DNA of 64,000 nt from Chondrosia reniformis (lineage: Eukaryota > Porifera > Demospongiae > Chondrillida > Chondrillidae), in assembly GCA_947172415.1 (NCBI GenBank), contig OX359201.1:4340001-4404000 (forward strand), read 5' to 3'. Each line of letters opens with the position of its first letter. Positions within the stretch are counted from its first letter, which is position 1. Under the pieces are notes generated by a model. That model saw nothing but the letters and a program-made list of their open reading frames with translations, did not search any database and was not told where the DNA came from. The translations under genes were made by a program, and so were the position numbers. Below, piece by piece: positions 21,601-47,828 of this stretch.

Positions 21601-24600
21601 TTATTAGTGTTCTTATGCAAATCTACGGAAATATGAAATTATTTGTGAAGGAGTACTGCCATTTACTCTCTGACAGGCTGTTATCCTCCATGTCATTTGA
21701 GATAACCAGAGAAGTATGTATGCATACTGCATTTTACATACACATCAAGCTTATATGTATGTTAGCCACGAAAACAAACTGCCTATGTTATACCTATGGG
21801 TATTTTCCACAACTGAAATGACTTTTTGGCCATTCTGGAGAGTGTAGTGTGTGGCTGTATTCATTGCCAAATCGTATGCACTTTATTGAGAAACAGGCAT
21901 AGTGAAAAGCCCATACTCTAATATATGTGCATTGGTTAAGACAGACTTTACTGTAGATAAGTATAATCTGATCCTCAGCCATGCAGTTATACATACGTAC
22001 GTATACTTTTAAAGTACCTCAAGTAGGTTTTGAACATGATAGATACCCAAGATGCCCTAAGTAGTAGTGCTTTGTGTCTAATATTACACAACATCAAAAA
22101 AGTGCTAAACAGGAACATTGATATTTGGACTTCAAAACTTAACACACGAGTAATTGACCTATGTTTATTATAATATGGCACTATGAGTACATTAACAAAG
22201 TGAATCCTGGTATACATGTTGCGTATACATATGTGTACAGTGTGTGATGGAGTAAAATGAATAATGATAACTTCTAATAGGTGCATAATCTGGAAATTCT
22301 CAAGTGCAAGTTTGGTGAATCCAACCTTCTATTGTGTGACATAATGTTGAAAGATATTGTTGATTCTAGAAGGTTTGCCAATGCAATTGCAGCTGAGCAA
22401 CAAGCATCTACTACACCCACTTTAGTGAGTGAAGTATCTCTAAGTTAGATATATATACAGTACATATGTATTCATTTGCCAGATTAATTTCTGAAAAAAT
22501 AGAGGACTTTAAGGTCTGAAGGCAAAAACTTTGATATCCTCATTATCCTCATCAAATTCCAGAGTTGAATGATGAGGAGATTAATTGTTACTTGGGCTTT
22601 TGCAGGCTTTCCCTGTTGAAGCCTTTATCTTGTCACATCTGTTTTGGCAAACTCTGCATTGTGAAGAACTGGAATTACCAGTTGATTTATTGAGGTATTG
22701 TACCACTGTATATATAAAATAATTTAGAGCAAACTGCATGGAGAGTGTCTAGTTTGGCTGTAATCATTGCCCCATTGAATGTACATATTATGTATTTAAT
22801 GGTAGATTAATGGGAAACGGGCATGATGTCAAGCCTTGACTATTCTACTTAATCTTGACAGAGCTGGACCACCATAAACTATATGTTGACTAACCTTTTC
22901 AGAAAAATGTCTGCACACCCGTTTTTATTTCATCTTAATTTTAGTGCCCTCAAGGGTTATACAAAGCAGTATCAAAAGTTGAAAGGAATGAGAACTTTAG
23001 AATGGAAATCATATCTTGGCTTAGTAGACCTTGAGGTTACCATTGGTGATAAAACTTTAGAATTTTCAGTTCCCCCTCCAAAAGCAGTGATAATTTTTCA
23101 TTTCCAGGAAAAAGGTACATATTAGAATAACTACATTTACGTAGTTGTATATCTTTCAATTCAAGGTAAGTATGTAATTGGGATTGTGTCCAAAACACAT
23201 TGTTAAAACCTCTAAAGTGTATATGAAAATTAATGAGGTACATAAGACTTTATAGCCCTATTTTAAATATCCAATATGCATAAGAATAAAATTACAGTAT
23301 ATACCATATGGCCGGAAATATTGGCGGGGAATTAAATTTGGCGTGCAACATCACGCCATCAATTTTTATCTCCTGCATGGCATCGCCAATGGAGACCTGA
23401 AAGCTAGGTAGCGTACCGTCTACTGGCAGGCTTGCACAGAAGAAAAGGCACTACCATAGTGAAGGAATAGAAAGGTAGTGGCCCACTCGTACGATAGATA
23501 GTCGACCTACGTCTGACTACTCATACGATGTCATCATCATTTAACTCTGGGTATTATCCCTGCCCACTCATGTCCCCTGAGGAGCGCAATGAGCTAATGG
23601 GCTAATCAAACTTCCATCGTATGCCATACTGATGAGTCCTAATAAGGACGAAACAGCTGTCTATGGCTCGACCATCTTTTTGAGTGGCTAGGGGGAGACT
23701 CTGGTTCCCATCGAGCGAACTTCGGTTCCGCCCATTAGCTCATTGCGCTCCTCAAGGGACATGAGTGGGCAGGGGTAATGCCCAGAGTTAAATGATGATG
23801 ACATCGATGCTTTAAGATTGGCTTTAGATCTTAAAGTTCCCCTATTTTTTCTACTCATACGATAGTGGCATGACTGCTAACGCATGGCAACTGACAGGGT
23901 AAGGATCCACGTAACGTCATATGATGGATGTACTTAGCTGCGAGTTTTTATTATGAATTAAATTCCACCAACATTTATCTTGCCTGTTTGGAGGCAAAAT
24001 TGCCAAATATTTGGACCACCAATATTTCTGGCCATATGGTAGTTTACTATTTACCCAATTTCTTTTTGCTTTCACTATTTCAGATAGGTGGACTTTGGAT
24101 GAATTGAACAAAGCAACCAAATTGTCACATACATCATTAAGGAAGCACCTATCCTTTTGGGTTGCTCAAGAGGTCATCAAGGAAATAGACAAAGATACCT
24201 TCACCTCAGTGGATGCTATTACAGAAGAGGAAGAAGAGTTGTATAAAGGTTAATTGATCAGTCCCAAAATCCTTGTTTAAATTTATTGAATTTATAGATT
24301 GAAGCTCAGTGAGTGGTCACATATAGCATTACAAGTAACTCAATGAGAAGGATTTTACTTTAATAAATGTGTATATATATATGAATGGGTTTAGTTTTTA
24401 CTGTGTTTACACCAGCCCAGTTTAGGTGCAAAAAGCGCAGGTACTGGGTCTGGATCAGTATTGTGGTTTTTTAAGAGCCTGCTTGTGAATGTAAAGCTAC
24501 TAAGTAAAGTAACTGCTTTAAATTGAGTGAAGGAAGAAAGGATCATTCCTTTGTGTTTACACTGCCATTCACAACTACGTACAGTAGGTAAACTTGGACA

Positions 24601-29112: not shown

Positions 29113-29384
29113 GATGAAAGAATGGAAAAGAAGGAAGACTCTAGGACCTGTATCTTCATCCAATCTTATGTATCTCTATCTCTGTATGTTCAGGTTTAGT
29201 TCCCCTATAGGCTCTTTCACAAAATAGGCATAGCATGTAGGAAAATGGTATTTTAGATTTTTCATAAGGGAAGAACTAAACTAATATTTTATACACACCT
29301 AAAAGGTACCAACCAAGGCCTGGTAACATAAAAATGCATACTCAGTCTTTTCCTCTTACTCTGTTATAAACCTTCATGTAGAGT

Positions 29385-31593
29385 ATGAAAACTGTAACTA
29401 AATTTTATAACAAGATTAAGAGGTCAAAGAGGGCTCACTGGATTCTTAGCCAGCTCTTATGGATCAAAGAAGAAGTAAAAGCTCAGCTGTATCTTGCTAT
29501 ACCTATTGCCTTAAGTTGTGTTCTATTGGAAGTTCCATTCTACACTTCCATTGCCTTTGTTGGACATATAGAGGGACGTAATGTGACCACATCTACATTT
29601 GTGGAGGCTATGGCTTTAAATATAAGCTTCATTCATCTAATTGTAACAAGTGTTACTTACGGATTAGTGACAGCCATAGAAACTCTGGTTTCTCAATCTG
29701 TTGGTGCTGGTAACTTTCCAAGAATAGGAGTGATACTTCAGAGATCCATATTGATCATTTTTGTAGTAATGCTCCTGCAATATGCAATATTATCCAACTC
29801 TACCTCCATTCTACACCTGCTACATCAGCCTCCCTGTGTCATAGATCAAATTGAACTGTTTATGCAAGTTTTTTATGTGGGTATTCCACCATTTGTTCTT
29901 CAGTATCTCTTGATTAGATACTATCAAGTACAGGGTGTAGTCTTGCCCTTCATACTGACAGGAGTAGTGGCTAATATTGCCAACATTGTGGCTCACTTTG
30001 TGTTTGTTGTGGTGCTAAAATTGGAAATGAGAGGAGCCGCACTTTCTCTGTGCATCTGCTATTACTTACATCTGCTCTTAATTGTGATTATTGGAATGGT
30101 CCTGAAGCTGAACAAGAAGACATGGGAAGGATGGAGTAGGGAGTGTTTGAATGGTTGGGGAGAGTTTCTAAAATTGGCTTTACCTGGAGTTATTATGGTT
30201 GGTATTGATTGGAGTCTATTTCAAGCTGGTTATTTTCTTCTAGGATTTATGCCTGGAAATGAAATCGAACTAGGAATATTTGGAATTATAACCAACTATG
30301 AGGTCCTAGTGTTTACATTAGGTCCACTTACACTTGGATTGGCAATGTCAATACAAATAGGAACAAAACTAGGAGCTGGTAAGTGTCCCGTATACATAAC
30401 TGGAAGAATGCACTAATGCAATTTGCATGTTTGCTATATGCCATATGAATTCTTGATTATAAATTTTCATTCTAAAATAAAGACATGGTTATTGAAGCTT
30501 ATTTTATTAAGCAGAAAAGCGCTAGTGCATGATTCTATTAATTCCTGAGATTGTTACTTTTGTGCATATTTTCCTTAAGTGTAACCAGAATATTTATCAG
30601 ATATATGCATATATATATATATATATATATTGATTTTCATCTGCATGCACTAAGCTACTAGTTTATCACAGTATTCATCATAGTATAACATGCAATTATT
30701 TTCCATAATTAGGTAAACCAAACGAAGCAAAGAAATCCATGTTAACTTCATTTGTCATGTTTGGAATGTGGATGTCATTTCTTGAAATAATAACTTATTC
30801 TCTAAGAGAATATATTCCTAGAATATCCACTTCTGATGAATGCATCTTGAATCCATTGCATCTTCCCTGGTTGCTATTACTTATGGAATTGTTTTTTGGT
30901 CAGAGTCAGTATTTCCTAAGTTGTGTACTGCGAGGATGTGGCTTACAAATACTAGGAAGCATCCTAAGTACTACATGTTTTGGCTTTATTGGCCTTGTAA
31001 TTGGTGCAATATTTGTTGTAATGCTTGATATGGGAGCTGCTGGTTTTCTGATTGGCCTCATTGTAGGAGCTGCAGTTGCTTTTGTGTTGTACATTTTAAT
31101 CATCATTTGTATTAATTGGGAAAAACGTTCAAAAATAGCTCAAAACTTGGCCAAACCAAAGTCAACAGCTGAGAATCATGCCATGGTAAACAATAGTGAT
31201 CCGTCACACAAAGAAAGGAATAGTGATCCATCACACCAAGAAGATCATGCTACTATCAATTCTACAGCTCCTGATGTCAATGAAAAGAATCAGAAGAAAT
31301 CCCAACATGACAATTCAGAGAAAAATGGTGAAAATGAAGCATGCAATTGCAAGAATGACTGTAGGGAAGTAAGCAGTGGATATTTGAAGAAAGGAGTTGA
31401 GACAGCCAAGATGAAAAAGAATTCTGCTAGAGACCTTCTTGTTAAAATCATAGCTGTCGTAGTAATTGTTTCAGTGACAGCAACAGCTATATGCATTGGG
31501 AATCTGTTTGTCTACAAGTGGAAATTATGTGATATGTTAGATTACCTGAATTCTGCAAATGACACCATTATCATAACCAAAATCAGTTGCTAA
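29385..31593 (+). CDS. MATE multidrug/toxin extrusion transporter A
   Basis: SLC47-type MATE: proton- or sodium-coupled antiporter exporting organic cations across the plasma membrane. Exons 29385-30378 and 30713-31593 join in phase inside GTKLGAG|KPNEAKKS, giving 624 residues. The family's twin signatures are visible: SQSVGAGNFPR (about residue 105-115) and IGTKLGAGKPNEAKKS (about 325-340), each starting a six-helix bundle. After the twelfth helix comes a hydrophilic tail rich in Ser/Asn/His, with a repeat of NSDPSHKE/NSDPSHQE. A thirteenth hydrophobic helix near the C-terminus follows (KIIAVVVIVSVTATAICIGN), as in animal SLC47A1. Substrate specificity cannot be read from sequence. First of three tandem copies. 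Confidence 0.93.
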
Positions 31594-31700
31594 ATGAACC
31601 TTAATTTCATTCACTAATTATTATTAATAAGTTATAGTATTTTCATTTATTTATATTTCAGCATGCTGTGTTCGTGTATACTGCAACTATTTATAAAATA

Positions 31701-32634
31701 GACTGACTGACTGACTGACTGACTGACTGACTGACTGACTGACTGACTGACTGACTGACTGACTGACTGACTGACTGACTGACTGACTGACTGACTGACT
31801 GACTGACTGACTGACTGACTGACTGACTGACTGACTGACTGACTGACTGACTGACTGACTGACTGACTGACTGACTGACTGACTGACTGACTGACTGACT
31901 GACTGACTGACTGACTGACTGACTGACTGACTGACTGACTGACTGACTGACTGACTGACTGACTGACTGACTGACTGACTGACTGACTGACTGACTGACT
32001 GACTGACTGACTGACTGACTGACTGACTGACTGACTGACTGACTGACTGACTGACTGACTGACTGACTGACTGACTGACTGACTGACTGACTGACTGACT
32101 GACTGACTGACTGACTGACTGACTGACTGACTGACTGACTGACTGACTGACTGACTGACTGACTGACTGACTGACTGACTGACTGACTGACTGACTGACT
32201 GACTGACTGACTGACTGACTGACTGACTGACTGACTGACTGACTGACTGACTGACTGACTGACTGACTGACTGACTGACTGACTGACTGACTGACTGACT
32301 GACTGACTGACTGACTGACTGACTGACTGACTGACTGACTGACTGACTGACTGACTGACTGACTGACTGACTGACTGACTGACTGACTGACTGACTGACT
32401 GACTGACTGACTGACTGACTGACTGACTGACTGACTGACTGACTGACTGACTGACTGACTGACTGACTGACTGACTGACTGACTGACTGACTGACTGACT
32501 GACTGACTGACTGACTGACTGACTGACTGACTGACTGACTGACTGACTGACTGACTGACTGACTGACTGACTGACTGACTGACTGACTGACTGACTGACT
32601 GACTGACTGACTGACTGACTGACTGACTGACTGA
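31701..32634. repeat. uninterrupted GACT tetranucleotide array, about 233 copies
   Basis: 934 bases of pure GACT/CTGA with no visible interruption, starting about 110 bases after the stop codon of gene A. Gene B has a shorter, interrupted array at 41704-41930. Gene C has none. Such purity suggests recent expansion or an assembly fill. Confidence 0.97.
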
Positions 32635-32744
32635 AGTTAACTAAGTAGCATTATATCCAGAAGTGGCCGAATAAATATAATTGACTTAACCATACATACA
32701 TGCATCACTTCTGTGTTAGGGTGATATCTAGGAATATATACCAC

Positions 32745-32935
32745 AGGCTATCCCTGTTTCTTTTTAACCACTTTGTGAACGTGGTATATATAGAGCATCG
32801 AAACATGTTTTGGCATTTAGAAAAGCATACATAAATGACTGCATAAACTAAAATCACTTTGTTGTTGATTATTAGATGTTAATTGATATTACCTTGAATA
32901 GGGGAACAATGTCCCTCTGATAATATATGTCATGG
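32745..32935 (+). repeat. dispersed repeat (CATCGAAACATGTTTTGG family)
   Basis: Core words TTTTTAACCACTTTG, AGAGCATCGAAACATG and TAGAAAAGCATAC. Other copies lie at about 36911-37100, 42055-42240, 46690-46870 and 59930-60150. The copies at 36911 and 59930 are the tail of a longer repeat that starts with a hairpin. No protein is encoded. Confidence 0.8.
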
Positions 32936-32974
32936 ACCAGAAAAGAATGTTCGTAGCTTATCGTATGTATATAT

Positions 32975-35365
32975 CAATTCATGATCATCAATCCAAAGTA
33001 ATAATAATACTATAAATGTTTCAACAACTAATCAGTTGTCTTCTTCAGTAGTACAATTATACTACTTATTACAACATAGTCACTTCCAGAAACTTAATTA
33101 AATTAGATCTGCCATGCAGAGTGTCCTCTAATATTGTAATATTTTCTTCAGTACTAAATAGGCTTCAGGTAAGGGACCTTTCTCCTGTTCATTGTTTTTG
33201 GGAGATGGTTCACTTACTATGACTCCAACATACAACGGGAGTATATACAGAGAGGTTTGCTGGTCCAAGATTCACGGTTACGTCTTCCAAGCCAATGTAA
33301 TGGTCCTCAATCATGGAATGTCCTGCTAGAGCACTGATGTCTGAAACCGATACACCACTCCACTTAGAGGGTCCTTAGGATTACTTGATGGGGGTGGAGG
33401 GGCTTTAGGATGGGACAAAATGTGCCATTAGATACATCATGGGTCTGTAGGATGTGTCATAATATATATCCAAGTTTCCCAAGACTTGTTTGATGGCCTT
33501 AGAAACTGAATATAAGGTAAAGTTACTTTGACCAGTGGCCCCTTTTGCATGGGCGATGTTATTCCAACCAAACATCTCCGGATTAGATTAGTAGGGTATC
33601 CATTCATTCCCAGAACGCTTGTGGGCCAAGGGATGGTGTAATAAAAACTGCAGATACTGGTGGTATGTGTTCATTTTGGGAACACTGAAAAGGAAACTGA
33701 CCCATCAGTCTCTTTACTTAAGTTGATTAAATAAAGAAAGGACAGTTGCTCACCCTTCTACACCTCATGGGTGAACTGTACTGAGCTTTTTATACTGTTA
33801 GGGTGCTGATGGAAATCCTCAACTAGCTGTGTTTGGTTCCGGGGCTACACAAGTGTCATCAACACATTGATTATAAAACCCCATCCAGTAATTTAGAGAA
33901 ATAGTATTTAGCTGCTTTAATAGAGAACTGCAAAGTGAATGGAAGAAAAGTATTGCTAGCAGTAGTAAAATGCAAGACCTGGCCAACCTATTGGCTGTGT
34001 GTGAACCTGATTATAGAACGAATATCAAGACAGAAATTATATATAGAATCCTTATTACTAAGATAAGAGGCGATGCAGTTAGATTAAGAGTAGAAGAGGG
34101 TATATATATATATGGGCTATAGATTGGAGAGGAGGGAACTTCTACGTATGTTATAGAGCACTGTGAAAAACAGGGAGTAGAAGACTTAATTCTTAGTTGT
34201 GAAAAGATTAGTAATGAAAGGAGTATTTTGGTTAGGGAATTAAGAGTGAGGTGGCATTGACTAAGGCATGGAGTAGTAAAATTGGGTATATTGTAATAAT
34301 ATTAAAATTGACAAAAAGACACAACTTGACTGGATAATAGCCCCATGACTCCCTCCCCTGTCTATGTATTAAATTTAATCTATATTTTATAAATGTGTTA
34401 TTAAGTTGTACATCCCCATATTACTTACTTTATTTTTACTGTATACATATGTCTACATAATCCACACATATCACATGCACCCTTTAAATCACCTTCCATC
34501 TCTCAATGCACTTGAACTACGTATTATGCACCACTTCAGAACTTGTTGCTTTTGTATGTGACTGTCTGGGAAGCTTGATGCACCCAGGCAGTCGGCAATG
34601 TAACTGGGAAGATAGCCTTAAGTCTTAAGTTCTACTCTGTCCCATTGTATCTTTGTGACATCTCCGACCTACCAGTTATCTAAATATCTTGCCTCCATCC
34701 TTATAATAGTCCACTAGTAGGGAATACCGCCTCAGCAGTCAAGAACTCTGGTTTATACGTGTCCAGGTATAGCCCTGTACCCTTAACTAGCACTGGTTGG
34801 CACATTAATTGTAAGCATATATATGCATGGTCACTTTGACAATTATATGTACGGGACACTTACCAGCTCAAAGTCCTTAGAGTTCTTGACTGCTGAGGTG
34901 GTATTCCCTACCAGTGGACTATATAAGGATGGAGGCAAGATATTTAGATAACTGGTAGGTCGGAGAGGTAATCCACGGCCATAAATCCTTGGTGTTTGTC
35001 CTGATGAACTCCTGAGACTATTTTTTGTACAGTTGTCCCGACCGGTGTGGAAGATGCTCTTGGATGGCACATCTGTCTGTACTCCTGTTGTATCATATGT
35101 TGGAGTCAGGGTACATCAAACACCTCCCAAAAAATGAACATGAAGAAAGTTCCCTTGCCTATTTATAAAGATAAGCATAGATGACATCATTAGAAGACAC
35201 TCCAGTGGAGCTATATACGTAATTTAATTCAATTTTCCGGAAGTGACTACGTTGTTATACGTAAATAGTGTTGTTAATTGTTCTTATTGTACTACTGATC
35301 GAAGAAGACAACTGAATTAGTTGAAATGTTTACTGTATTATTATTACTTTGGATTGGTGAATTAT
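32975..35365 (-). mobile_element. PLE remains with inverted ends (MATE A spacer)
   Basis: Inverted ends at about 32975-33110 and 35222-35365 share ACTGAAGAAGACAACTGATT-type hammerhead-like sequence, AATCCAAAGTAATAATAATA, and a TAGTCACTTCC inner part. Inside, 35070-34843 (minus) codes a short RT piece with PRIYGRGLPLRPTSY and YSPLVGN, like the PRIYGLPK block of PLE RTs. A second, inverted copy of this piece lies at about 34670-34745. The middle (33110-34660) has no recognisable coding except a possible capsid-like stretch near 33970-34230. The homologous segment at 42890-44250 lacks about 900 bases (33940-34838). Confidence 0.65.
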
Positions 35366-35499
35366 ACAATAAACTACGAATGGAAGCTATAGGACCCAAT
35401 CGTTCAGGACTCTATAAAGTATATAAGTAACTGTATTTAGTTATTAATATAATTGATAATACCGTATTATCTCTAATATCAGTCCGGGACTTGTATTTT

Positions 35500-35884
35500 T
35501 GGGGCGCCGCAGGCGCCCCTATATTGTTTTCAGAAATTATGTTAACGTATGGCTTCCTGTTCGTAGTCTTGTATATATATATATCTGTCAAAAAATGGCG
35601 GACGTTCGGCTAGCTTTCGTTTTCTAGCTTAAAATTAGCTTTCTCTTCCTTAGCGTAGAACAGTGAACGAACGAAATGGACTTAAAAACCACCCTTACTA
35701 ATACTATGTAACGTAAAGCTTGCGTAAAAACGTTTTCTACGAGATATGGCCTTGAAAAATTGACGGTCAACAAGAGTCGATCGGAAATCGGTTAACCGGA
35801 TATCTATGACAAGCAGCCAAGTAGTTCGAGTTTACTTAGGGGCGCCTGGCGCCCCACGAGTTTTTTAAACTCGAACTACTTGTT
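35500..35884. mobile_element. insertion with GC-rich hairpin ends, absent from the B duplicate
   Basis: Compared with the duplicate at 44393-44405, 35500-35884 is extra, so an insertion is directly visible. It starts with GGGGCGCC-GCA-GGCGCCCC (35501-35519) and ends with GGGGCGCC-T-GGCGCCCC (35839-35855). The second hairpin is nested in a 17-bp palindrome CAAGTAGTTCGAGTTTA / TAAACTCGAACTACTTG (35818-35834, 35866-35882). No open frame; the class is unknown. Similar TCGAGTTTAAAAACTC sequence occurs at 42345-42390. Confidence 0.75.
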
Positions 35885-36008
35885 TCAAACCTTTTATTGA
35901 AGACTGGGCTTGTATAAGAGACTGGGCTTTTATTTTTTTCAATCCTTCAATTCATATTGGTAAATCAACTTTGTTGGGACAATTTCCGCATGCATAAACT
36001 ATGTAAAT

Positions 36009-37117
36009 AAGTTAAATAAAAACATTCAAAAATAAAGTTAAAAGTAGGGATGGCACTATAACAGTGATTGGCACATCCAGAAAAAGTAACCAAAACAAGA
36101 AAGTGATCATATGGTAAGGCTAACATTGCAGAAGTGGCATACTGAAACTTAACTATACACATCACTTCTATGTTTGGGCGCATCATGGATATACTAGAAG
36201 TAGGGATCGATGCGCCCAAACATAGAAGTGATGTGTATAGTTAAGTTTCAGTATGCCACTTCTGCAATGTTAGCCTTACCATATGATCACTTTCTTGTTT
36301 CGTTACTTTTTCTGGATGTGCCAATCACTGTTATAGTGCCATCCCTACTTTTAACTTCATTTTTGAATGTTTTTATTTAACTTGTATTGCTCCTTTTTTC
36401 TTATTAACATTTGTTTTGAAAGTTTTCTTGGCGAAAATTTGAAATAAAGTAGCAGAATAGACGATATAATCGAGAGCTCTAAATTAAAAAAATGGCGTCC
36501 GAAAAGATCCCAAATTTGTCAAATAAATCATCTACCGTTCTTTAATATTTAGTTTAGGATATTAAAGGGTCCGTAATCGTTAATAATACGACTATATATA
36601 GGCCCTGCAAAGCGACTAAGTAATTCGATCACGGGGGGCGGCAGTACCACAAATATTTCTAACTCAAGTTACTTATTTATATACAGAGAATTTGACTTAA
36701 TTAAAAAATGGCGTTCGAAGATTTGGCACCTTAAAAAGTAACACGCTTCGGATAGAGCGCGTTGAAATCTAGGGTTGCCTATTCCCTAGTTCGGAAACAT
36801 TCATGACGATTTAGTGCTTGTATGTACCTGCGTAAGTTCGCATGCTAGCGCTAGCTCATTTGAAAAAAGAAGAAGAAAAAATGAGGAATTTCAGAATTTG
36901 GCCTATTTCGGTTTAACCACTTTGCGAAGGTTGTAGAGCATCGAAACATGTTTTGGCGTTTAGAAAAGCATGCAAAAACGACTGCAAACACTCGAATACA
37001 AGCAAAAAACCTATCGCTGTTGATTTATTAGGTGTTAATTGATAATACATTGAATAGGGCGGCCATGTTTTTTTTCGGCCATCCCTACTTATAGAGTACT
37101 ACCGTACTCTATGATAG
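36009..37117. mobile_element. 1.1-kb dispersed repeat X, copy 1 (hairpin head, covarying tail hairpin)
   Basis: Extra relative to the B duplicate (44519-44523), so a true insertion. The head is a hairpin of two 175-base arms (36009-36184, 36209-36383) around 24 bases. The tail is the CATCGAAACATG family. The 3' end carries a stem ATAGAGTAC/GTACTCTAT. Inner marks AAGTAGGGATGGC and GGCCATCCCTACTT are inverted near the two ends. No coding capacity is seen. Copy 2 at 49756-60170 is split by a transposon. Confidence 0.8.
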
Positions 37118-37547
37118 AGAGCAGCATGTTTGATAAGTATGAATATATACCATAAGTCTTTTATTAGTGTGTCAGTGGGCTTATATTGGGTACTGGGCTT
37201 ATAACTCGTAAAGGTGGGCTTCTATTGGAGACGAGCTTGTATTAGAGATAATATGATATGTACGTACGTACGTATATATATACCAACCACAGCCTGGTAG
37301 CAAGAAAACTTATAAATGCATGAGAGAATATAGGTTCATTGCTACGAGCCATCCCAGGAACAACAACCTGGACTGTGGACTGATCCTCAATGATGTGTGG
37401 CACCCCTTTGTCACCCAGCTGTAATATAATATTTCTTCTGAGTTTTTTCACTACCTATTTTTAGAACTATTACATCATCATTGCAACATCACATTACGTC
37501 ACGATTTCTTATCTCACCAATCAGTTTGTTTATATTCAAGGTGTAAC

Positions 37548-37600
37548 TTATTTGTGTCATTAGCTGATGAAGGTCTACGGACCGAAACCTCCTGAAATAA
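37548..37600 (+). repeat. mutated hammerhead-like motif
   Basis: Same context as the copy at 44974-45011, but stem I is disturbed (ATTAG) and ACGT is ACCT. It sits in the duplicated 5' flank of MATE gene B and so pairs by descent with the copy before gene C. Confidence 0.6.
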
Positions 37601-37888
37601 TTCATTAATTGTTTCGCGCTGCTACGGAAAGCTCATCAACTAACTAACCTTATAAATGCATGCTTAGTCTTTACAGTTATACCTTCAGTAGAGTTTTGTG
37701 TGGTTGTGTTGGTAGGTGATAATGAGGCATTTGGAGCAACTCTGATGTTACTACTGTGCTGGCAACCTGTTTGCCTACATTTTGTGTTAGGTTCTTTGAT
37801 ATAGGTATATAGGATAAGTACCAACCACAGCCTGGTAACATAAAAATGCATATTCAGTCTTTTCCTGTTATAAACCTTCATGTAGAGT

Positions 37889-40800
37889 ATGAAAACTGTA
37901 ACTACATTTTATAACAGGATTAAGAGGTCTAAGAGGGCTCAATGGATTCTTAACCAGCTCTTATGGATCAAAGAAGAAGTAAAAGCTCAGCTGTATCTTG
38001 CTATACCTATTGCCTTAAGTTGTGTTCTATTGGAAGTTCCATTCTACACTTCAATTGCCTTTGTTGGACATATAGAGGGACATAATGTGACCACATCTAC
38101 ATTTGTGGAGGCTATGGCTTTAAATATTGGCTTCATTCATCTAATTGTAACCAGTGTTACTTATGGATTAGTGACAGCCATAGAAACTCTAGTTTCTCAA
38201 TCTGTTGGTGCTGGTAACTTTCCAAGAGTAGGAGTGATACTTCAGAGGTCCATATTGATAATTTTTCTAGTAATGCTCCTGCAATATGCAATATTATCCA
38301 ACTCTACCTCCATTCTACACCTGCTACATCAGCCTCCCTGTGTCATAGATCAAATTGAGCTGTTTATGCAAGTTTTTTATGCGGGTATTCCACCATTTGT
38401 TCTTCAGTATCTCTTGATTAGATACTATCAAGTACAGGGTGTAGTCTTGCCCTTCATACTGACAGGAGTAGTGGCTAATATTGCCAACATTGTGGCTCAC
38501 TTTGTGTTTGTTGTGGTGCTAAAATTGGAAATGAGAGGAGCCGCACTTTCTCTGTGCATCTGCTATTACTCACAACTACTCTTAATTGTGATTGTTGGAA
38601 TGGTCCTGAAGCTGAACAAGAAGACATGGGAAGGATGGAGTAGGGAGTGTTTGAATGGTTGGGGAGAGTTTCTAAAGTTGGCTTTACCTGGAGTTTTTAT
38701 GGTTGGTATTGATTGGAGTCTATTTCAAGCTGGTTACTTTCTACTAGGATTTATGCCTGGAAATGAAATTGAGCTAGGAATATTTGGAATTATAACCAAC
38801 TATGAGATCATAGTATTTACATTAGGTCCATTTACACTTGGATTGGCAATGTCAATACAAATAGGAACAAAACTAGGAGCTGGTAAGTGTCCCATATATA
38901 TATATATATATGTATAACATATACTCTCTATGCAGTATAGTTGAGAATTTCAAAGCCTGCAACTATACGTACTATTTAAAATACTGATTATCCTAGGGGT
39001 CACTTGGATCTCTTTAATTTTGTAACTGGCACTGTGTAGCTATAGTACTTGATTGTAATTTTAATATTACATAGTCACTTGGATCTCTTAAATTTGTAAC
39101 TTGTACTGTGTAGTACTTGATCGTAATTTTAATATTTGCCAGTAACTTGCACTGAGTAGTGCACTTGAGTGTAATTAGCTAGCAAAGTATTTTACTATAC
39201 TTATAGACATTCGCTATGAGCAATTTCGTTACGAGATTCTACTGTATGCACACATGGAAAACGTACACACATGGATAAGAATTAAGCCTTGTTGAACGTC
39301 AGCAACATGAATTTACTAATTCTGGACGTTTCGACCCAGAGTTCTTTATCAGCAATACATGAGGAATGGGAATACAAGTCAGTATAGGAAATTAGTAAAT
39401 TCATGTTGCTGACACTAAACAAGGCTTTATTCTCATAATGATACACATGAATAAGTAAAAATATTAACAGATAACGTAAGAAGAGAAGACAGAGCTTAAA
39501 TTACCTAGGTAATACGGTCGACCAAACGAATTCAGTCTTTCGTATCAATATAGGAACAACTCTGCCTGAAACTTGACGGGAACGTATATACAAAAACGCT
39601 TTATCTAACCTTCGCTACAACTCGCCTGTTCGGTAGCTCCTTCTCGTAGGAGAGCGTCGACTTGTCATAGCCGTTCTCGAAAGGATGATCTTCTTTAGGA
39701 ACGAGGCGGTAACGTCTTTGCAACGTGAAATGATTCCCAAATTGTGTAGGCAAGGACATACGAGGGTGTGGGAGACGCATTACAAAAACGTAATACATCA
39801 TCAGATTGCGCAATCATAACCTTGAATTCTTTACTATATCTCGATTAATTTGCAACTTTAATTAAGCAAAACTTCGCCAGACGTTTGACATACACATGTA
39901 CCATGATATATGTCGGTTTCACAGTGATTTGACGAATTGATAATTTTTATTAATATAACACTTGTTTTCAATATAAATTTCCTATAGGTTTTCTATAGTC
40001 CTATGGCATTTTATATGCAGACTTTGTCCTTAGTTTTCTACCAAACGGAGACCTAAATCAAAAATCCCTTAATTTTAAATGAGTTTTATACCCTAAACAT
40101 TATGATGATATGCCCATTCTGTTGCTAGGTCCTTTCCTGGAGCTATATGAATTATTTATATTATATTAGATTAGATTAGATTAGATTAGATTAGATTACC
40201 TTAGTATATTGTAACTTGTACTGTATATATTGATTTTCACCTGCATGCACTAAGCAGAGCGAATTTATCACCACCAGTATTACATGCAATTATTTTCCAT
40301 AATTAGGTAAACCAAACGAAGCAAAGAAATCCATGTTCACTTCATTTGTCATGTTTGGAATGTGGATGTCATTTCTTGAAATAATAACTTATTCTCTAAG
40401 AGAATATATTCCTAGAATATCCACTTCTGATGAATGCATCTTGAATCCATTGCATCTTCCCTGGTTGCTATTACTTATGGAATTGTTCTTTAGCCATAGT
40501 CAGTATTTCCTAAGTTGTGTACTGCGAGGATGTGGCTTACAAATACTAGGAAGCATCCTAAGTACTACATGTTTTGGCTTTATTGGCCTTGTAATTGGTG
40601 CAATATTTGTTGTAATGCTTGATATGGGAGCTGCTGGTTTTCTGATTGGCCTCATTGTAGGAGCTGCAGTTGCTTTTGTGTTGTACATTTTAATCATCAT
40701 TTGTATTAATTGGGAAAAACGCTCAAAAATAGCTCAAAACTTGGCCAAACCAAAGTCGTCAAAGATGCATGCTATGGTAAACAATAGCGATCCGTCACTC

Positions 40801-41184
40801 AAAGAAAGGAATAGTGATCCATCACACCAAGAAGGCCATGCTACTATCAATTCTACAGCTCCTGATGTCAATGAAAAGAATCAGAAGAAATCCCAACATG
40901 ACAATTCAGAGAAAAATGGTGAAAATGAAGCATGCAATTGCAAGAATGACTGTAGGGACGTATGCAGTGGATGTTTGAAGAAAGGAGTTGAGACAACCAA
41001 GATGAAAAAGAATTCTGCTAGAGACCTTCTTGTTAAAATCATAGCTGTTGTAGTAATTGTTTCAGTGACAGCAACAGCTATATGCATCGGGAATCTGTTT
41101 GTCTACAAGTGGAAATTATGTGATATGTTAGATTACCTGAATTCTGCAAATGACACCATTGTCATAACCAAAATTAGTTGCTAA
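37889..41184 (+). CDS. MATE multidrug/toxin extrusion transporter B
   Basis: Exons 37889-38882 and 40307-41184, 623 residues. It differs from copy A at scattered positions (for example NIGFIH for NISFIH, LFFSHSQYF for LFFGQSQYF, PGVFMVG for PGVIMVG, PKSSKMHAM for PKSTAENHAM). Both signature blocks and the C-terminal helix are present, so it appears functional. Its intron is 1424 bases against 334 in copy A. The extra DNA includes a fold-back (39299-39412) around a PLE-type motif and an ATTAG pentamer run (about 40164-40198). The spacer upstream is a diverged copy of that before gene C, which supports duplication of whole units rather than of the coding part alone. Confidence 0.93.
39299..39412. 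repeat. fold-back with degenerate hammerhead-type centre (MATE B intron)
   Basis: TCAGCAACATGAATTTACTA at left and TAGTAAATTCATGTTGCTGA at right are exact inverted copies. The centre on the minus strand reads CTGATAA, A, GAACTCTGGGTC, GAAACGTC. The conserved G of CTGATGA is A, so cleavage is not expected. Confidence 0.75.
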
Positions 41185-41703
41185 ATGAACATTAATTACA
41201 TTCACTAATTATTGATTATTTATTAATAAGTTATAGTATTTTCATTTTAATTATTAATATTGCAACATGCTGTATTTGTGTATGCTGTAACTATTTATAA
41301 AAAATATAATCTACATGTACACCAACATTGACAACCTCTCAAGGCTTTTGTCTGCAGGGATAGCTGATAGACCTCCAATCAATACCAAACTACGATTCCT
41401 TGCTGATTTACCACTAATGATCAGACTAGATGATATTATAGTACTTGTAGTGTTATTACATGAGGTGGTGGTGCTATTATATAGAAGTGGTATATATAGA
41501 GTTGGTATGTGTAGTGTTAGCATTAGTGGTGCTATATAGCAGTGATGCTAGCGGTGGCAGTGCTATATGCAAATACCAGTCTATAGTTAATGTCAGCTTA
41601 TATTTAGACACTATTGAAACAGGCATTGTCAATGTTTACCTGAGATTACCTCCAGAAAAGAGTCAGCAAGGGGTCAAGTTCACCAGTTTGATGATTTGAA
41701 ATA

Positions 41704-41930
41704 ACTGACTGACTGACTGACTGACTGACTGACTGACTGACCGTCTGACTGCATGACCGTCTGACTGACTGACTGACTGACTGACTGACCGTCTGACTGA
41801 CTGACTGACTGTCTGACTGACTGACCGACCGACTGACTGACTGACTGACTGACTGACTGACTGACTGACTGACTGACTGACTGACTGACTGACTGGCTGG
41901 CTGGCTGGCTGACTGACTGACTGACTGGCA
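41704..41930. repeat. interrupted GACT/CTGA array after MATE B
   Basis: About 225 bases of CTGA units with GTCTGAC, CCGAC and GGCTGGCTGG interruptions. It lies about 520 bases past the stop of gene B. On the minus strand it opens a long Ser/Gln frame, which is a by-product of the repeat and not a gene. Confidence 0.95.
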
Positions 41931-42889
41931 GATGGAGCTAGGAAATCACATAACCTCTTACACAATTGTGTGGAGTAATGATATTGGAAGTAGGGATGGC
42001 CAATGCAGCAATAATGTGTTAGGGTGATATCTGAAGTATATAGGAATAGCACAGCCTATCCCTGTTTCTTTTTAACCATTTTGTGAGCATTGTATATATA
42101 TACGTAGAGCATCGAAACATGTTTTGACAATTAGAAAGGCATACATAAATGACTGCATAAACTGAAATCACTTCATTGTTGATTATTAGATATTACCTTG
42201 AATACAGGAGCAATGTCCCTCTGATATGTCATGGACAAGAAAAGAACGTTCGTACATGTAGCTTATCGTATATATACAGTATATACAAGTTACAATATAC
42301 TAAGGTATTCTAATATAATTAATTAATTAATATAAATTAATAAACAAGTATTTCGAGTTTAAAAACTCCGAATTAACTCGAATTACTTGGCCGCATCGTT
42401 GGGATTTAATATATATATTCGTAATACTAACGATTGAGGACGCTTAAGTGTCCTGAAATTTATAAATAACGATGGAAAAGCTTCGTTAACTAAAGCTTCC
42501 TGAACGCCGCCATTTGCAAAAACGATGTATTGACGTATAAATTAAGTGTTACAATAGGGACATCATATGACATACGTATGTAAAGGCCTTGGCCTTTTAT
42601 GTCTCTTGTGTACAAGTTACAAAATGGTCTCTAACCCTGTTGATTATGCGAATGCATGCAACCAACCGTCGGTATTCTTAGCTCACTCACAAGCAAATCA
42701 AACTGCTGTGCACGTGGTTATTAGCTGAGACCCCTTTAGGACTGGAACCTTTGTTGATATATGGCATGCAGATGCATCATCTTCAGTCTATATACTAAGG
42801 TGTGAAAGGGTAATTGGTAGGCCATGTGTTCTACCTTGCAATTGGATGATCTGTATCAACTACTACTCTCTATGCAGTAGTTGAGGATT

Positions 42890-44250
42890 TACAACATATA
42901 GTCACTTCCAGAAACTTAATTAAATTAGATCTGCCAGAGTGTCCTCTAATACTGTAATATTTTCTTCAGTACTAAATAGGCTTCAGGTAAGGGACCTTTC
43001 TCCCTGTTCATTGTTTTTGGGAGATGGTTCATATACCATGACTCCAACACACAGCAGGAATATTATACAGATACGTAGGTGTGCCGGTCCAAGATTCACG
43101 GTTACGTCTTCCAAGCCAAAGTAATGGTCCTCAATCATGGCATGTTAATTCTGCTAGAGCACTTATGTCTGAAACCATTACACCAGTCCACTTATACTTG
43201 ACAGGGGTAGAGGGTCCTTAAAATGTGCCATTAGATACATCATGGGTTTGAAGGATGTGTCATAATATCCAAGTTTCCCAAGACTCATTTGATGGCCTTA
43301 GAAACTGTATATAAGGTAAAGTTACTTTGACCAGTGGCCCCTTTTGCATGGGCAATGTCATTCCAACCAAACATCTCCGGATCAGATTAGTAGGGTATCC
43401 ATTCATTCTCAGAACGCTTGTGGGCCAAGGGATGATGTAATAAAAGCTGCCGATACTGGTGGTATGTGTTCATTTTGGGAACACTGAAAAGGAAACTGAC
43501 CCATCAGTCTCTTTAGTTAAGTTGATTAAATAAAGAAAGGACAGTTGGTCACCCTTCTACACCTCATGGGTGAACTGTATTGAGCTTTTTATACTGTTAG
43601 GGTGCTGATGGAAATCCTCAACTAGCTGTGCTTGGTTCCGGGGCTACACAAGTGTCATCAACACATTGATTATAAAACCCCATCCAGTAATTTAGAGAAA
43701 TAGTATTTAGCTGCTTTAATAGAGATTCTGAACTGCAAAGTGAATGACAATTATATGTACGGGACACTTACCAGCTCAAAGTCCTTAGAGTTCTGACTGC
43801 TGAGGTGGTATTCCCTACCAGTGGACTATATAAGGATGGAGGCAAGATATTTAGATAACTGGTAGGTCGGAGAGGTAATCCATAAATCCTTGGTGTTTGT
43901 CCTGATGAACTCCTGAGACTATTTTTTGTACAGTTGTCCCGACTGGTGTGGAAGATGCTCTTGGATGGCACATCTGTCTATACTCCTGTTGTATCATATG
44001 TTGGAGTCATGGTACATCAAACACCTCCCAAAAAATGAATATGAAGAAAGCTCCCTTGCCTATTTATAAAGATAAGCATAGATGACATCATTAGAAGACA
44101 CTCCAGTGGAGCTATATACGTAATTTAATTCAATTTTCCGGAAGTGACTACGTTGTTATACGTAAATAGTGTTGTTAATTGTTCTTATTGTACTACTGAT
44201 CGAAGAAGACAACTGATTAGTTGAAATGTTTACTGTATTATTATTACTTT
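42890..44250 (-). mobile_element. PLE remains, duplicate of the MATE A spacer segment
   Basis: Homologous to 33070-35300 but lacking about 900 internal bases. It carries the same minus-strand RT piece at 43971-43768 (PRIYGLPLRPTSY, YSPLVGN) and the same hammerhead-like right end (about 44190-44240). The left hammerhead-like end present before gene A is missing here. Confidence 0.65.
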
Positions 44251-44959
44251 GGATTGGTGAATGATACAATAAACTATGAATGGAAGCTATAGGACCCAAT
44301 TGTTCAGGACTCTATAAAGTATATAAGGAACTGCATTTAAATATTAATATAATTGATAATACCGTATTATCTCTAATATCAGTCCGGGACTTGTATTTTT
44401 TCAAACCTTTTATTGAAGACTGGGCTTGTATAAGAGAATGGGCTTTTATTTTTTCAATCCTTCAATTCATATTGGTAAATCAACTTTGTTGGGACAACTT
44501 CCACATGCATAAACTATGTAAATATAGAGAGCAGCATGTTTGATAAGTATGAATATATACCATAAGTCTTTTATTAGTGTGTCAGTAGGCTTATATTGGG
44601 TACTGGGCTTATATTTTTTGATAACTCATGAAGGTGGGCTTCTATTGGAGACGAGCTTGTATTAGAGATAATATGATATGTACGTATGTACGTATATACC
44701 AACCACAGCCTGGTAGCAAGAAAACTTATAAATGCATGAGAGAATATAGGTTCATTGCTACGAGCCATCCCAGGAACAACAACCTGGACAGTGGACTGAT
44801 CCTCAATGATGTGTGGCACCCCTTTGTCACCCGGCTGTAATATAATATTTCTTCTGTTTTTCACTACCTATTTTTAGAACTATTAAATCATCATTGACAA
44901 CATCACATTAAGTCACGATTTCTTATCTCACCAATCAGTTTGTTTATATTCAAGGTGTA

Positions 44960-45030
44960 ACTTATTTGTGGCATTCAGCTGATGAAGGTCTACGGACCGA
45001 AACGTCCTGAAATAATTCATTAATTGTTTC
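44960..45030 (+). ncRNA. hammerhead-like ribozyme motif upstream of MATE C
   Basis: TTCAG (44974-44978), CTGATGA (44979-44985), A, GGTC-TACG-GACC (44987-44998), GAAA (44999-45002), CGTC, then CTGAA (45007-45011) pairing exactly with TTCAG. A further TTATTT upstream can pair with AAATAA downstream across a bulge. The predicted cut is after 45006. Stem III is the palindrome ACGT, again suggesting action as a dimer. All core bases match the hammerhead except the extra A. Confidence 0.7.
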
Positions 45031-45302
45031 GCGCTGCTACGGAAAGCTCATCAACTAACTAACCTTATAAATGCATGCTTAGTCTTTACAGTTATACCTT
45101 CAGTAGAGTTTTGTGTGGTTGTGTTGCTAGGTGATAATGAGGCATTTGGAACAACTCTAGTGTGCTGGCAACCTGTTTGCCTGCATTTAGTGTTAGGTTC
45201 TTTGATATAGGTATATAGGATAAGTACCAACCACAGCCTGGTAACATAAAAATGCATACTCAGTCTTTTCCTCTTACTCTGTTATAAACCTTCATGTAGA
45301 GT

Positions 45303-47828
45303 ATGAAAACTGTAACTAAATTTTATAACAGGATTAAGAGGTCAAAGAGGGCTCACTGGATTCTTAACCAGCTCTTATGGATCAAAGAAGAAGTAAAAGC
45401 TCAGCTGTATCTTGCTATACCTATTGCCTTAAGTTGTGTTCTATTGGAAGTTCCATTCTACACTTCCATTGCCTTTGTTGGACATATAGAGGGACGTAAT
45501 GTGACCACATCTACATTTGTGGAGGCTATGGCCTTGAATATTGGCTTCATTCATGTAGTTGTAACCATTGTTACTTTTGGATTAGTGACAGCCATAGAAA
45601 CTCTGGTCTCTCAATCTGCATGTTGGTGCTGGTAACTTTCCAAGAGTAGGAGTGATACTTCAGAGATCCATATTGATCATTTTTGTAGTAATGCTCCTAC
45701 AATATGCAATATTATCTAACTCTACCTCCATTCTACACCTGCTACATCAGCCTCCCTGTGTCATAGATCAAATTGAACTGTTTATGCAAGTTTTTTATGC
45801 GGGTATTCCACCATTTGTTCTTCAGTATCTCTTGATTAGATACTATCAAGCACAGGGTGTAGTCTTGCCCTTCATACTGACAGGAGTAGTGGCTAATATT
45901 GCCAACATTGTAGCTCACTTTGTGTTTGTTGTGGTGCTAAAATTGGAAATGAGAGGAGCCGCACTTTCTCTGTGCGTCTGCTATTACTCACAACTACTCT
46001 TAATTGTGATTATTGGAATGGTCCTGAAGCTGAATAAGAAGACATGGGAAGGATGGAGTAGGGAGTGTTTGAATGGTTGGGGAGAGTTTCTAAAGTTGGC
46101 TTTACCTGGAGTTATTATGGTTGGTATTGATTGGAGTCTATTTCAAGCTGGTTACTTTCTACTAGGATTTATGCCTGGAAATGAAATTGAGCTAGGAATA
46201 TTTGGAATTATATCCAACTATGAGATCATAGTATTTACATTAGGTCCATTTACACTTGGATTGGCAATGTCAATACAAATAGGAACAAAACTAGGAGCTG
46301 GTAAGTGTCCTGTATATATATAACTGGAAGAATGCACTAATGCAATTTGCATGTTATTTCGTGTTATATATTTTGTGTCTTTAGAAACATTAGTGTCATT
46401 TATAGATTGTGATGCATGTTCTAAAATTGATAAATAATTTTAAATTTATACTAAATAAGGTCATGCATTGTTGTGATATATTTAATTGTAGCTCAGCTGT
46501 ACATAGAGCTCAGTCGACTAATTCAATTGAAGGATAATGAGGGTTTAATTCCATGCAAGCTGTTGTTACGTTCAGGCCTGTATTGCTTTAGTGTGACCTG
46601 AAGATTTATTCAAGTTATGTAATATATGTCTACGGTGCCTGTGGTGCTCCTGTCCATAATGTCTCTGGTGCCCCTGCCGCTTGCCTATTCCTGGTTAGCC
46701 ACTTTTTGAACACTATAGAGCGTTTAGAGCATCGAAACATGTTTGGCAATTAGAAAAGCGTGCATTAATGGCTGCAAATACACGAAAGTCGCTTTGTTGG
46801 TGATTTATGAGGTGTTTCCTGCTAATACATTGGATAGGGCGGCCATTTTTTCTGGCCATTCTCCTACTTATATATGTATCTAGAGTACTTTGATTTTGCA
46901 CTAAGCAAGACATCAGTATATATTACATGCATCCAATTATTTTCCATAATTAGGTAAACCAAACGAAGCAAAGAAATCCATGTTCACTTCATTTGTCATG
47001 TTTGGAATGTGGATGTCATTTCTTGAAATAATGACTTATTCTCTAAGAGAATATATTCCTAGAATATCCACTTCTGATGAATGCATCTTGAATCCATTGC
47101 ATCTTCCCTGGTTGCTATTACTTATGGAATTGTTCTTTAGCCATAGTCAGTATTTCCTAAGTTGTGTACTGCGAGGATGTGGCTTACAAATACTAGGAAG
47201 CATCCTAAGTACTACATGTTTTGGCTTTATTGGCCTTGTAATTGGTGCAATATTTGTTGTAATGTTTGATATGGGAGCTGCTGGTTTTCTGATTGGCCTC
47301 ATTGTAGGAGCTGCAGTTGCTTTTGTGTTGTACATTTTAATCATCATTTGTATTAATTGGGAAAAACGTTCAAAAATAGCTCAAAACTTGGCCAAACCAA
47401 AGTCTACAGCTGAGAATCATGCCGTGGTAAACAATAGTGATCCCTCACACAAAGAATGCAATAGTGATCCATCACACCAAGAAGACCATGCTACTATCAA
47501 TTCTACAGCTCCTGATGTCAATGAAAAGAATCAGAAGAAATCCCAACATGACAATTCAGAGAAAAATGGTGAAAATGAAGCATGCAAGAATGACTGTAGG
47601 GAAGTAAGCAGTGGATGTTTGAAGAAAGGAGTTGAGACAACCAAGATGAAAAAGAATTCTGCTAGAGACCTTCTTGTTAAAATCATAGCTGTTGTAGTAA
47701 TTGTTTCAGTGACAGCAACAGCTATATGCATTGGGAATCTGTTTGTCTACAAGTGGAAATTATGTAATATGTTAGATAACCTGAATTCTTCAAATGACAC
47801 TATTGTCATAACCAAAATTAGTTGCTAA
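45303..47828 (+). pseudogene. MATE transporter C, 4-base frameshift in exon 1
   Basis: Exons 45303-46300 and 46954-47828 follow copies A and B closely, including splice sites, twin signatures and the C-terminal helix. Exon 1 is 998 bases instead of 994. Four bases (CATG at about 45619-45622) are inserted in the codons for SQSVGAG, so the first signature is destroyed and translation ends at a stop 8 codons later. Everything after is open in the original frame from 45652. Either a young pseudogene or a sequencing/assembly error. Reads across 45610-45630 would tell. Confidence 0.88.

Follow-up and report, generated by a model that had tools for sequence, protein, structure and literature searches.

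Head-to-head insertions of a sponge hammerhead retrozyme family point to Penelope-type machinery

The question raised by the locus

How does a short element that encodes no protein come to lie in a genome as two inverted arms? The question is raised by positions 23517-23863 of the window, the whole stretch of 64,000 nt of Chondrosia reniformis DNA analysed here (C13:4340001-4404000, in a searched genome of 117 Mb and 15 contigs). The first-pass annotation described this locus as a retrozyme-like, RNA-mobilised insertion and took it to be a single monomer built as a long inverted repeat, perhaps of a distinct class. Metazoan non-LTR retrozymes are described as non-coding elements with monomers of 170-400 nt and a type I hammerhead, arranged as tandem units in some copies; their target-site duplications are longer than the 4 bp of the plant kind, and they coexist with Penelope-like elements (PLEs) that carry minimal hammerheads (PMC7229834). 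According to a 2020 review, the metazoan repeats show no conserved motif that reveals the mobilising retrotransposon (PMC7761336). PLEs are considered strong candidate movers by coexistence, common type I hammerheads and tandem copies (PMC7229834).

The insertion and its empty sites

The insertion lies in an older host element (23302-24041) with 26-nt terminal inverted repeats (TIRs) at 23302-23327 and 24016-24041, which are 92% complementary. It is flanked by identical 13-mers, CTACTCATACGAT, at 23517-23529 and 23851-23863 (plus strand), which had been annotated as a duplication. Separate searches with the two flanks yielded three paralogues of the host element matched by both of them (C5:4825752, C11:2371281 and C13:3822695). 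In the aligned sequences, the insert is absent from all three, and each has one 13-mer-like site, exact in L011 and altered in L010 and L012. Because the paralogues have this site once and without the insert, the 13-mers are a real target-site duplication, and the empty sites show that 23530-23850 is an insertion accompanied by a 13-bp duplication. The three relatives of the host TIR DNA element are longer than the window copy.

The insert of 321 nt does not consist of a single monomer with inverted halves, as had been thought, but of two partial, oppositely oriented copies of a 350-nt unit, whose positions are given here as mono. The left arm (23530-23602, minus strand) is an antisense monomer that runs from mono 217 to mono 145, and its outer end, located at a site called S, is tail-less. 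A single base (23603) stands at the joint and belongs to neither arm. The right arm (23604-23850, plus strand) is a sense monomer from mono 19 to mono 265, whose outer end is located at a second site, T, so that the window copy is without about 100 nt of the unit. The S-to-T stretch (23803-23850, plus strand) is present in the right arm only, where it forms a tail with a hairpin at 23810-23836 and a T6 run at 23845-23850.

The right arm also contains the type I hammerhead ribozyme (23623-23667, plus strand), with cleavage predicted after 23661. It matches RF00163 with 37.1 bits, against a cut-off of 34 (E 1.1e-5; Rfam, 4227 families, both strands), and is the sole Rfam match in the window at the gathering score. 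A TTCG-capped hairpin is found at 23717-23728 (plus strand) by direct reading of the sequence, as are the terminal hairpin and the T6 run. Complementary arms extend over 77 nt (23526-23602 with 23730-23806, 96% complementary), although 23526-23529 are bases of the 13-mer and a chance part of this pairing. On all of these points, namely the ribozyme and its cleavage position, the inverted arms, the 13-mers, the hairpins and the T6 run, the first-pass annotation was borne out. No ORF of at least 200 aa overlaps the insert. Folded as a single strand, the right arm of the window copy scores only weakly better than its shuffles (z -1.68; 11 of 200 dinucleotide shuffles as good).

Elsewhere in the window, MATE transporter genes, three in tandem, occupy 29382-47828 (from ORFs, with a protein search of the first). 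Among the hits of that search that carry an organism name, MATE proteins of fish rank best. At 31647-32650, three overlapping minus-strand frames consist of SVSQ repeats; the DNA here is a tandem repeat of short units that stays open in more than one frame, and is probably not a gene.

A retrozyme family with a 350-nt monomer

The insert has many relatives, and the retrozyme-like reading therefore did not fail for want of other copies. At least 175 matches to it were found in the genome (40 scored of 1089 first-look candidates), and searches for the family ends with at most three mismatches located a 24-mer from one end 410 times and a 33-mer from the other 260 times, against none for the reversed-pattern controls of either search. 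At least 51 of 65 listed type I hammerheads exceed the cut-off (73 of 11921 candidates scored); these counts are lower bounds, since the window's own hammerhead is absent from that listing.

The complete mobile unit is the 350-nt monomer, as defined from L004, and it occurs in tandem within the arms of L004 and of other copies. When folded as a circle, the monomer is predicted to adopt a rod, with a free energy of -126.9 kcal/mol; 60 mononucleotide shuffles average -86.4 (z -6.7), which is a laxer control than the dinucleotide shuffles applied to the right arm. The features found are a type I hammerhead, a 350-nt non-coding unit with tandems, and genome-wide repeats with duplications; by these tested features, all read from sequence, the element is a member of the metazoan non-LTR retrozymes, non-coding and presumably RNA-mobilised. 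The proposal of a retrozyme-like, RNA-mobilised insertion is thus upheld, the duplication being genuine and the genome also containing PLEs.

A second family of type I hammerheads is present as well (L030:1500-1740 and L033:1500-1733), about 250 nt long, its two members being 81% identical to each other.

Two arms with two fixed outer ends

Thirty-eight distinct copies were parsed. They are not a random sample, most being the best DNA or hammerhead matches and the remainder coming from pattern sites on contig C1 and the start of C2. Two arms were detected in 25 of the 38, and in all 25 the minus arm precedes the plus arm, that is, the arms lie head to head. Their outer ends use two fixed sites 49 nt apart, S at mono 217 and T at mono 266, between which the unit contains a hairpin, a C-run and a U-run. 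For typing, ends at mono 210-228 were assigned to S and ends at mono 258-280 to T, with end coordinates transcribed by hand from the copy parse. Eighteen two-arm copies have one end of each class, one is T+T, and six have one end outside both classes. The combination of one S with one T therefore occurs in 18 of the 19 copies with both ends typed (binomial P 7.6e-5, or 1.4e-4 without L056, which is apparently a duplicate of L006). The sole T+T copy, the diverged L031, is a counter-case to this one-of-each rule. Where a single arm was detected (13 copies), the outer end is S in seven cases and T in six, a division that misses short arms, as L038, counted here, has a 19-nt T arm.

Exact end repeats of at least 9 bp are found in 20 of the 38 copies, compared with 46 of 1404 pairs crossed between copies. 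The repeat of L083 is internal to the element, and L003 and L040 have repeats that resemble microsatellites; as a set, the duplications of the copies are real. Flanking duplications and tandem forms, both proposed for counting in the first-pass annotation, were found.

Six of the 38 copies, including a pair that duplicate each other, are located inside a 13-bp satellite, ACTAGTTGTATGT, that also hosts PLEs and whose period equals a common duplication length. The dimer of this satellite has 190,357 overlapping matches with at most three mismatches, and its reversed control none. Blocks of it occur on contigs C1-C14 (e.g., C1 3.86 Mb, C3 3.00 Mb, C8 3.00 Mb and C14 2.65 Mb), and because the listed exact matches fall in few blocks per contig, it may be a centromere satellite.

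Penelope-like elements of the same genome

PLEs of the Penelope/Poseidon type have head-to-head terminal repeats, one of which may carry a tail of some 31-40 nt (PMC3846280, PMC11167929). Their duplications are 8-10 bp long, and self-priming has been proposed for the inversion in rotifer PLEs with palindromic joints (PMC3846280). The PLE protein of the lizard Anolis is reported to cut and extend both DNA strands in vitro, and to start reverse transcription within the RNA at two neighbouring sites, between which the tail lies (PMC11167929).

In the sponge genome, a search for GIY-YIG gave at least 38 matches (150 of 382 candidates scored), and one ORF contains both RVT_1 and GIY-YIG. A further open frame, L071:958-3102, has a GIY-YIG match in the N-terminal half, and Pfam detects no RVT_1 across the 714 aa that were read; its order resembles that of PLEs with permuted domains. 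Two PLE insertions could be read at both ends, each with an 11-bp duplication: L068 (GACTTGTTATA) and L074 with L070 (TATATGTCCTA). Both have head-to-head arms, with the tail confined to one of them; one outer end stops at, or 2 bases past, CCCAAAGAT, and the other has a tail of 34-35 nt.

Among the first 100 of 387 exact PLE ends listed, 16 close pairs are head to head, none is opposite-facing and two are on the same strand. An exact tail match occurs at one end in ten of these 16 head-to-head pairs, at neither end in six and at both ends in none, the last figure carrying little weight alone because 10 tails among 32 ends give about 1.6 such pairs by expectation. Two PLE end pairs, C6:4755160 with 4757169 and C13:2947063 with 2949013, lie head to head about 2 kb apart and have tail-length matches on both sides; they are possibly exceptions to the one-tail layout, or else neighbouring insertions.

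The retrozyme copies thus display the layout of PLEs, with head-to-head repeats, a one-sided tail and a short duplication. Comparison of the monomer with 20 PLE loci found 16-nt chance matches only (E 2.1), and because the retrozyme and PLE ends are without sequence similarity, no particular PLE family is named as the mover.

Joints between the arms and the template

In the 22 duplication-bounded copies, 41 arms were measured, with lengths from 19 to 810 nt, some exceeding one unit. The inner coordinates of the two arms differ in 22 of the 25 two-arm copies and are no more than 10 nt apart in three, and the 16 joints that were read have either 0-4 nt of microhomology or an insert of 1-22 nt; the joint of L037 is palindromic (mono 265 and 263). 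Since arm length, unit content and joining points all vary between copies, the inverted repeat is made at insertion. Hence the first-pass picture of a transcript shaped as a rod with a ribozyme tip finds no support, and neither does that of a distinct monomer class: the inverted arms are an insertion product, and the interest of the element resides in its insertion footprint rather than in its class of RNA.

The hammerhead cleavage site is read through 30 times in the 41 arms, and no inner end lies within 5 nt of it. Templates were therefore not linear cut monomers, a candidate that is rejected, but closed or uncut RNAs. Inner ends cluster at mono 260-268, where start site T is located (9 of 41), and at mono 19-26 (6 of 41), and 7 of 41 fall in mono 194-217 (P 0.02), all of these windows having been chosen after inspection of the data. 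The cluster at mono 260-268 fits a reverse transcriptase (RT) that finishes a lap of a circle, and an RNA 5' end nearby would fit too; that at mono 19-26 could reflect either the 5' end of an RNA or a halt of the RT at a stem base. Variants compared by eye between the arms are mainly private to one arm, a comparison confounded by age.

Proposed mechanism and its alternatives

The genome itself displays the empty sites, the head-to-head arms, the two fixed ends used one of each, the variable joints, the read-through of the cleavage site and the layout shared with PLEs. As read from these sequences, this animal non-LTR retrozyme family is probably inserted by PLE-type machinery that primes from both target strands, a reading to which we give a probability of about 0.7. 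The hammerhead would cut the transcript, and a host ligase would close the monomer into a circle, steps adopted from PMC7229834. The PLE protein would make staggered cuts in the target, leaving 3' overhangs, and the 3' ends of the two target strands would then prime RT at internal sites of the RNA, S for one and T for the other, with 49 nt and the hairpin between them. Both cDNAs would run back along the uncut, probably circular RNA for variable lengths, sometimes for more than one lap, before being joined at their ends through hardly any homology or none. The product of priming by each target-strand 3' end at one of the two sites would be the layout observed: the arms head to head, just one of them tailed, and a duplication of roughly 8-14 bp derived from the 3' overhangs. 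We infer the circle from the arms that read through the cleavage site; the enzyme, the cuts and the joining are likewise inferred. Against PLE-type insertion count the dissimilar ends of retrozymes and PLEs, the T+T copy L031, the two PLE pairs with tail-length matches on both sides and the second hammerhead family, in which no head-to-head arms were found within the stretch examined (L030, L033 and also L081).

The same machinery might instead have copied a linear, uncut multimeric transcript, with the hammerhead idle in insertion. The ribozyme was dispensable for insertion in vitro in the Anolis PLE (PMC11167929), and the inner ends at mono 19-26 could mark the 5' end of such an RNA; however, arms of up to 810 nt require either long tandem transcripts or a circle, and the ends at mono 260-268 suit completed laps of a circle as well as a nearby 5' end, which leaves the linear template rather doubtful. 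That a single cDNA or antisense RNA snapped back and copied itself into inverted arms is very unlikely. The palindromic joint of L037 and the three copies whose arms meet within 10 nt are what such self-priming would produce, but the meeting coordinates of the two arms differ in the other 22 of 25 copies, the joints have microhomology or inserts, and the use of S on one arm and T on the other is not predicted; as the general case, self-priming is rejected.

Inversion could also have arisen by twin priming if LINE-type machinery inserts the element. In the twin priming of LINE-1, both target strands prime on the RNA and an inversion results, which happens occasionally and at a variable internal site. 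In favour of this origin, LINEs too use target-primed synthesis, produce duplications of 9-14 bp and can leave inverted insertions. LINEs have, moreover, been named beside PLEs as possible retrozyme movers (PMC7229834, PMC11722881). Priming from both strands is alike in the two cases, but here inversion is the rule and not the exception (25 of 25 two-arm copies) and involves two fixed sites; there is neither poly(A) nor a fixed LINE-like 3' end, and the layout is common to the PLEs of this genome, the elements that the comparison covered. A LINE origin is consequently regarded as distinctly improbable. Finally, two unrelated insertions or a DNA rearrangement might have brought the arms together by chance, which deserves hardly any credence: one duplication encloses both arms, the same arrangement recurs in 25 copies, and for the window copy the idea is refuted by the empty sites, which are without both arms.

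A two-protomer complex on one RNA would explain the one-of-each rule. More tentatively, and at somewhat less than even odds, a paired PLE complex may sit on one ribozyme-made circle and oblige the two strands to prime at different sites, S for one and T for the other. The two cDNAs would then be copied from that circle in a single direction, with the RT tending to halt where copying has already started, as the inner ends at mono 260-268 suggest.

Relation to known elements and significance

With the metazoan non-LTR retrozymes (PMC7229834), the element has in common its monomer size, type I hammerhead, tandems, duplications and coexistence with PLEs. The retrozymes described in that source are direct tandem repeats, and the word "inverted" does not appear in its text, whereas the two-arm copies reported here have a head-to-head arrangement and outer ends at two fixed sites. 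Plant LTR retrozymes have a type III hammerhead, LTRs, a 4-bp duplication and a unit of 600-800 nt (PMC7229834); they too are non-autonomous hammerhead retroelements thought to move via RNA circles, but the window element has a type I hammerhead and a 13-bp duplication, and does not belong with them. With PLEs, as described in the sources cited above, it shares the head-to-head repeats, one-sided tail, short duplications and two adjacent internal start sites. PLEs, however, encode an RT and a GIY-YIG domain, and because the window element has no ORF, hence neither of these, it is not a PLE, although it acts like one at insertion. The retrozymes add to this the use of one site of each kind per insertion, a rule not seen stated for the Anolis protein in the text consulted (PMC11167929).

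Animal retrozymes and the head-to-head layout of PLEs are already known; the two-site insertion layout appears to be new for retrozymes. In the literature on animal retrozymes and Penelope elements, as represented by titles and abstracts and by few subscription papers or preprints, neither inverted animal retrozymes nor a two-site footprint is reported. The layout suggests PLEs as the likely inserters of animal retrozymes, which would help to settle the open question of what mobilises them. It ties genomic insertions to the two internal RT starts of a PLE protein in vitro, and offers a simple account of the inverted terminal repeats of PLEs, in which each strand primes, one per site. The footprint of two ends, one tail and both strands is also a test applicable to any animal genome with retrozymes. 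If the paired complex on a single circle is true, retrozymes would represent the minimal substrate for Penelope retrotransposition, with the one-of-each rule as its signature in animal genomes.
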